A DNA stretch of 64,000 bases from Oasisia sp. SBJ-2009 (Eukaryota > Annelida > Polychaeta > Sabellida > Siboglinidae), in the NCBI GenBank assembly GCA_964017155.1, contig OZ024856.1:46856465-46920464 (forward strand), read 5' to 3'. Position numbers and translations under genes: made by a program. Positions 47,869-62,446 of the stretch are shown here, in pieces (the first letter of the stretch is position 1; the number at the start of each line of letters is the position of its first letter). The notes under the pieces are model-generated. The model made no database searches and was not told where the DNA came from. It saw only the letters and a list, made by a program, of their open reading frames with translations.

Positions 47869-47922
47869 ATGAACGTGTGGGGCTTCGGCGTGCTGTTGAT
47901 TTGTGTCGTCTCGACGATTCAG
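47869..47922 (+). CDS. Receptor exon 1, signal peptide
   Basis: ATG then 18 codons, MNVWGFGVLLICVVSTIQ, a compact hydrophobic signal sequence, followed directly by GTGAGA. The phase-0 end joins exon 2. A 4.1-kb intron follows, filled with LINE fragments and a direct repeat. The assignment is inferred from phase, position and signal-peptide character. Confidence 0.7.

Positions 47923-62446: not shown

Follow-up and report, generated by a model that had tools for sequence, protein, structure and literature searches.

The gene described here belongs, in the reading that we favour and hold to be quite likely, to a small tandem family encoding what are probably single-pass receptors of siboglinid tubeworms, with an ectodomain of 14 cysteines, possibly furin-like, a ZU5-UPA region and two Death domains in a row, and working in the way of UNC5. 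The predicted architecture is that of a signal peptide, an ectodomain, a transmembrane helix, a fast-evolving linker, ZU5, UPA and two Death domains, and its recurrence in neighbouring copies and in a second species, as judged from sequence comparison, is more than chance would give. Membrane topology in life, a ligand for the ectodomain and a role of the latter as a 'sensor' are what we infer. Known parts are thus met in a combination that we have not found named, and the protein is a variant of the UNC5-type ZU5-UPA-Death proteins which may give these worms a death or immune signalling receptor of their own.

Gene model of the window copy

The window, the whole stretch of 64,000 nucleotides that was analysed (C3:46856465-46920464, in an assembly of 764 Mb and 33 contigs), carries the copy that we name A. 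Its exons were first traced by raw reading and by stop-to-stop frames between 46.5 and 64 kb of the window, and their junctions were fixed, from sequence only and with no gene finder, by comparison with paralogues and with P0001, a Lamellibrachia protein described below. Nine exons (47869-62446, plus strand), with entry phases 0,0,0,0,1,2,0,0,0 for exons 1 to 9, join in one frame open for 779 residues; the consistent phase of the original prediction is therefore upheld, while its product of 739 residues was too short. Exon 1 (47869..47922) provides the start codon and the signal peptide MNVWGFGVLLICVVSTIQ, in phase 0, up to a GTGAGA donor. Exon 2 (52044..52469) encodes the ectodomain and a single transmembrane helix, exon 3 (54213..54440) a juxtamembrane linker with a tyrosine, open and phase-consistent in copies A, C and D, and exon 4 (56951..57086) a further linker, RIRPSLSQRL...TQPQSTLDET, entered in phase 0 and left with 1 nt. 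The ZU5 domain is carried by exon 5 (58446..58755), which is preceded by AT and not by AG: of the nine GT-AG exons announced earlier, the number stands, and GT-AG throughout does not. Exon 6 (59346..59598), aligned to UNC5B 3g5b, covers the ZU5/UPA junction, with His-Phe-Cys codons at 59446-59454, and UPA, which continues in exon 7 (59896..60039) and ends in exon 8 (60380..60550). Exon 9 (61829..62446) holds the two tandem Death domains, then the stop codon.

Exon 4 was placed at 56951-57086 because P0001 has RQPQSTLSDTDFSEFNERFYW just before its ZU5 and the window codes TQPQSTLDET just upstream of its own. This exon is kept in A, C and D, and partly in B, and it matches the P0001 linker immediately before ZU5. 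Another candidate, 57321-57386, was given up because its length leaves 0 mod 3 when a remainder of 1 is required, because the copies differ in length there, and because P0001 favoured 56951-57086. Exons 3 and 1 are the least secure, since exon 3 has a dN/dS above 1 and no counterpart in P0001; the 3′ end of exon 3 in A is also unlike that in C and D. Upstream of paralogue B there is a sequence like exon 1 in which ATA replaces ATG, and downstream of D another, with a stop.

In the intracellular part, Pfam recognised ZU5 (3.4e-9), two Death stretches (6.1e-22, and 2.8e-23 in the evidence for exon 9) and UPA at 9.2e-5, its 22.6 bits falling under the 27-bit cut-off. UNC5B 3g5b was matched over ZU5-UPA-DD1, with E 7e-16 for the single sequence and 9.6e-21 for the profile (positions 26-384), and the best solved relatives of exon 9 are UNC5B and UNC5H2; the queries for the first Pfam scan, the first UNC5B match and the first protein search were made without exon 4. 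ZU5 and two UNC5-type Death domains, as had been proposed, were recovered in this way; the UPA-like region was covered by the UNC5B match and missed by the Pfam threshold.

Paralogues, constraint and the state of copy A

Measured between exon 1 of A and the Death domain of E, the five members A to E fit into ~98 kb of C3, and the two paralogues at distances of 43 and 74 kb keep the domain order of copy A. In A, C and D the ectodomain, linker, ZU5, UPA and Death exons follow one another in one order and on one strand, D being inverted. Copy D (C3 ~46,973,650-46,986,427, minus strand) has nine GT-AG exons for 791 residues, with the signal peptide MNVCIVVLLATVTTLSQ; its first exon is unlike that of A (61% identical), similarly hydrophobic, and ends at a CAG/GTGAGT donor. 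Copy C has AA as its exon 8 acceptor and a stop within DD2, and no exon 1 was found for it. Two of the three ectodomain-bearing copies are damaged in consequence, A by the loss of its exon-5 acceptor and C by its acceptor, its stop and the failure to find its exon 1. A full ectodomain was found at three places, in A, C and D, and C13 has a relic of 30 residues (71% identical over 31 residues to P0001, 68% over 28 to D), counts that are lower bounds for the 764-Mb assembly.

One may wonder whether the ectodomain exons belong to one gene and the ZU5-Death exons to another that happens to be its neighbour. A full ectodomain exon was not seen at six further loci that have exons for ZU5-UPA-Death (B, E, the C13 pair, C3:57.29 Mb and C3:6.94 Mb), as such a separation would allow; yet order and strand are held in A, C and D, with D on the opposite strand, the bridging exon 4 passes into ZU5 at the residues where P0001 does so, and P0001 is a single predicted protein that spans both halves in another species, which makes chance neighbourhood scarcely credible.

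The single receptor gene that we prefer is under constraint, as judged from substitution patterns, in its ectodomain and in most of its intracellular exons. The exon 2 protein of A is 96% identical in D and 89% in C, with 3-4 stops in each of the two other frames. Nucleotide identity of A and D is 92.4-96.8% in exons 2 and 4-9 and lower in the introns that align end to end (intron 2 85.9%, intron 5 77.2%, intron 6 87.0%, intron 7 84.7%), with aligned pieces of introns 1, 3, 4 and 8 at 78-92%, those of introns 4 and 8 reaching 87-92%. Between A and C the contrast of exons (93.7-97.1%, exon 3 87.7%) and introns (mostly 88-94%) is smaller. The ratio dN/dS, whose values all come from short stretches with few changes, is 0.18 (A-D), 0.39 (A-C) and 0.34 (C-D) in exon 2, and for A-D 0.30 in exon 5 and 0.16 in exon 6. 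It is higher in exon 9 (0.61, 0.71 and 0.89, with a small dS) and, for C-D, in exon 7 (1.56) and exon 4 (0.66). Over the first 69 codons of exon 3 it exceeds 1 in all three pairs of A, C and D (1.24, 4.61, 1.25), and over the entire exon it is 1.16, 2.43 and 0.79; values above 1 there mean either positive selection or absent constraint.

The window copy itself has an awkward feature. Its exon-5 acceptor, eleven nt before ATCAACGAACGC, reads AT, where AG stands in seven paralogues (B, C, D, the C13 pair, C3:6.94 Mb, and C3:57.29 Mb together with contig C16, which is nearly a copy of it), the divergent copy E not being comparable at this position. A U12-type intron was weighed by eye as an explanation of the AT and dropped. 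As the AG has been lost, copy A may fail, or it may splice through an upstream AG in frame. We would give an even chance to its being a decaying pseudogene, in which the change from AG to AT blocks correct splicing of exon 5 and the receptor is made only by D, or by an orthologue. The contrast with the seven loci speaks for decay, as do the divergent end of exon 3 in A, the damage to the sister copy C and the lack of a detected ectodomain exon in paralogue B; on the other side, the nine exons of A are free of stops and frameshifts, dN/dS between A and D is low (0.16-0.33) in exons 2 and 4-8, and four AGs, situated 24-114 nt upstream, keep the phase and leave the frame open, so that exon 5 could begin at 58332, 58398, 58416 or 58422. 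Use of one of these could give copy A a protein longer by 8-38 residues, with no stop. To judge from the splice sites, copy A is probably impaired or using a displaced exon-5 acceptor, with D as the intact form, and it is probably not the best representative of this type of receptor.

Other loci complete the picture of the family. Copy E has one Death domain only. The 12-kb contig C16:1-12084, the exon translations of which are identical to those of the C3:57.29 Mb copy, is probably a leftover haplotype. The assembly gave 26 ZU5 matches; of the eight loci that were read, three resemble the ZU5 type of copy A: L006, which is copy E, and two ZU5 exons of related type, L004 (C14:7102147, NDRFYW...HCLPHG) and L007 (C7:52325596, NDRRYW...HFFPHG). 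Together these three make a wider, lineage-expanded ZU5 group likely. At C5:46.06 Mb there are 66 residues of a ZU5 domain with UNC5B as nearest relative (1.3e-7), from which it appears that the genome holds a separate UNC5-like gene, and a ZU5 on C10 matches ZO-1 at 5.8e-15 and UNC5B at 2.7e-9.

Relatives and origin of the domain order

The ectodomain agrees with what had been announced as about 100 residues with 14 cysteines, since it measures 92 residues to the last of them. All 14 are invariant in the four aligned rows (P0001 and the near-copies A, C and D), and identity to P0001 is 53% for D and 52% for A. The single helix that had been claimed was modelled with confidence: AlphaFold placed it at 98-129, with pLDDT 76-94 over blocks 101-130, in a model of the ectodomain exon with P0001 whose mean pLDDT of 51.5 is too poor to judge the fold. 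The label 'furin-like', which we keep as weakly supported, fared less well. The spacing C-x3-C..GYYG..CxxC..CxxC..CxxC..C presumably resembles that of furin-like repeats, and Pfam Furin-like_2 was seen below threshold (E 0.027) in one of the four rows, no Pfam family rising above cut-off in the ectodomains of A, C, D and P0001. R-spondin-2 was matched at E 0.09 and 0.04; this is near noise, because GATA-1 scores better, at 0.012. Fn14 was matched at E 0.047, and TNFR_c6 was not matched in any of the four ectodomains, even with E allowed up to 10.

P0001 (LSAT2_024199, 459 residues, 51% identical over the main match) comes from Lamellibrachia satsuma, also of the Siboglinidae. This one predicted protein runs from the ectodomain through a transmembrane segment, a linker and ZU5 to part of UPA and the beginning of DD1; it lacks a counterpart of exon 3 and the central portion of UPA, and it breaks off within DD1. 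ZU5 is its only Pfam match, and it is annotated 'hypothetical protein'. A second protein of L. satsuma, P0002 (LSAT2_012501), has a proline-rich N-terminus and ZU5-UPA-DD-DD, without such an ectodomain, and two further unnamed ENA proteins (among P0001-P0005) resemble it by eye. P0003, NP493_385g02008 of Ridgeia piscesae, has the end of UPA and DD-DD (91% identity over 62% of the intracellular query) and, as annotated, is without its N-terminal half; the public gene model looks faulty, as its first ~80 residues match, by eye, the wrong frame of the UPA exon. The annotations of P0001-P0003 name hypothetical or Death-domain-containing proteins. It is from best matches of this kind, to Lamellibrachia and Ridgeia, that the window was placed among the siboglinids.

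Searching with the ectodomain alone in a set of 5.8 billion proteins returned one match from 77 candidates, P0001, in keeping with the proposal of a distinct and possibly lineage-specific receptor class; the ectodomain was found only in the 764-Mb assembly and in Lamellibrachia, by searches that can miss distant relatives, and the receptor is apparently lineage-restricted, on the matches obtained. The three protein searches gave 2, 1 and 5 matches from 7999, 77 and 7996 scored candidates and returned nothing named UNC5, so that the selection of candidates was limiting and absence from other animals is not proved. No family already annotated with the very same architecture turned up, the sole public relative found with the ectodomain being the hypothetical P0001, which stops in DD1. 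In the open-licence literature, outside which most subscription papers lie, nothing joined ZU5, death domain and Lamellibrachia; for ZU5, death domain and annelid only ankyrin work surfaced, and for 'tandem death domains' only an engineered FADD.

The doubling of the Death domain has a history of its own. In a tree of eight sequences (A, B, D, one C13 copy, C3:57.29 Mb, C3:6.94 Mb, one C11 locus and P0002, without C, the other C13 copy and P0001), DD1 and DD2 split on the two sides of one branch, with support 95/93 and in 98% of 200 bootstrap trees; copy E, with its one Death domain, joins the DD1 side. As these two groups include P0002, which is without the 14-Cys ectodomain, the doubling is older than the 14-Cys receptor. 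The original prediction described a receptor class in which a small Cys-rich sensor is coupled to a doubled death-fold output; the doubling did not arise with this receptor and is shared with relatives that lack the ectodomain, being common to P0002 and the C11 loci. Phylogeny would probably have a two-Death protein come first, the ectodomain later joining one branch, or being lost from the others; the intracellular tree does not resolve how A, B, C, D and P0001, the two C13 copies and the pair C3:57.29/C3:6.94 branched from one another. A model of P0002 has a mean pLDDT of 43.5 (54-88 by block in the two Death stretches, low in the rest), and Foldseek gave the Death domains of UNC5H2 as its best matches.

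Among known systems, UNC5 comes nearest. UNC5 receptors have the layout of type I membrane proteins, with guidance-type ectodomains and one Death domain. Copy A resembles UNC5A-D in ZU5, UPA and Death, the UNC5B 3g5b match running over ZU5-UPA-DD1, and differs by its 14-Cys domain in place of an Ig/thrombospondin ectodomain (neither Ig nor thrombospondin type 1 had a Pfam match in the 236-residue N-terminal part), by two Death stretches in exon 9 instead of a single domain, and by Phe-Cys where UNC5B has Leu-Gly at the ZU5/UPA junction. UNC5CL also has ZU5-UPA-Death at the membrane, with little ectodomain, to which the tubeworm receptor adds the cysteine-rich ectodomain and a second Death domain. 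PIDD1, CARD8 and NLRP1 share the succession of ZU5-UPA and a death fold, and a junction Phe before a possible nucleophile; the tubeworm protein, in contrast, is an apparent membrane receptor with one ZU5, two Death domains and Cys for Ser, and leucine-rich repeats, a trait of PIDD, were not detected by Pfam at E up to 1 in the model without exon 4. Finally, p75NTR (TNFRSF16) and the death receptors have a Cys-rich ectodomain, one transmembrane segment and a Death domain, a layout that is shared here; the p75NTR Death domain is weakly similar (E 6e-5), and the tubeworm receptor differs in having no TNFR_c6 match and in having ZU5-UPA and two Death domains.

Putative working, host setting and surroundings of the gene

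The structure of UNC5B displays a closed ZU5-UPA-DD unit, and it is natural to think of the tubeworm receptor along the same lines. At rest, ZU5-UPA would keep the first Death domain closed; binding of a ligand, or clustering of the ectodomain, would open this form, and both Death domains would then, as elsewhere in the death-fold family, nucleate an assembly that might recruit adaptors or caspases, with death or inflammatory signalling as a likely output. The second Death domain could either raise valency or remain free while DD1 is held. Our structure models are too weak to display the closed ZU5-UPA-DD form or the fold of the ectodomain; passages of PMC3210808 mention a ZU5-DD interface.

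The ZU5/UPA junction invites another thought, namely that ZU5-UPA might cleave itself at His-Phe/Cys, by analogy with HF/S in PIDD and SF/S in CARD8 and NLRP1, UPA-DD-DD staying noncovalently on the membrane-bound ZU5 for later release. Phe-Cys is kept at this junction in all nine genomic loci with that exon, in P0001 and in P0002, preceded by His in 9 of these 11, and it aligns with Leu-Gly of UNC5B (residues 677-678 by count), Leu-677 being the residue that a passage of PMC3210808 equates with the cleaved Phe-296 of CARD8. Known sites have Ser, however, not Cys, and passages of PMC3210808, PMC8081665 and PMC8195603 place a required His 27 residues before that Ser (H270/S297 in CARD8, H942/S969 in NLRP1); none of the five aligned rows has a His at this spacing, the position of UNC5B His624/CARD8 His252 is occupied by Cys, Tyr or Phe, the invariant His67 and His71 sit elsewhere in ZU5, and the junction Cys may be structural. 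Self-cleavage seems to us, on balance, unlikely.

An UNC5-like output rebuilt to contain two Death domains, put under a small ectodomain of new type and multiplied in tandem, would show how hosts of intracellular symbionts may rewire death signalling. The literature on tubeworm genomes gives a setting for this: passages of PMC6862839 discuss expansions of TNFR, TRAF and caspases together with the Toll-like receptor pathway, those of PMC8476170 a duplication of cathepsins, an expansion of innate immunity and low apoptosis in the trophosome, and those of PMC9921365 an expansion of gene families for chitin binding and innate immunity. A term search of PMC8476170, PMC6862839 and PMC8789280 found neither UNC5 nor ZU5 in their main texts, and no UNC5 in that of PMC9921365. 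As ZU5 and UNC5 are missing from the main texts of PMC6862839 and PMC8476170, a receptor able to feed into the control of death or immunity would be a testable new element. One might go further and imagine a receptor class private to chemosymbiotic siboglinids, the ectodomain of which would sense a symbiont or host ligand, with a ZU5-UPA that would cleave itself at Phe/Cys and free or expose the tandem Death module, leading to death or inflammatory signalling in symbiont-bearing tissue, its copies turning over fast under symbiont pressure; we consider this whole scenario decidedly improbable.

The gene lies among repeats and remnants of mobile elements. Upstream, on the minus strand, 43528-44477 is a broken transposase of Tc1/mariner type in two overlapping frames (HTH_Tnp_Tc3_2 3.4e-16, DDE_3 7.6e-11). 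Intron 1 contains a reverse-transcriptase remnant (48971-49345, RVT_1 1.1e-12) and, at 50881-51105, an RT-like FDKVPHQ stretch, seen by eye and with no Pfam match. In intron 3, inverted copies of a CCCGTTATAGCTACTT-like 16-mer (54679-54791 and 55401-55508) flank ~0.6 kb and look, by eye, like the ends of a small mobile element; a 48-copy AAT array follows at 56372-56515. Intron 4 holds a 24-base minisatellite (57421-58277, 35.7 copies at 94%), with a similar array in D and an alignment with C that skips it. Directly downstream of the gene, 62792-63240 is a 90-copy array of the pentanucleotide GAACC, open in several frames.
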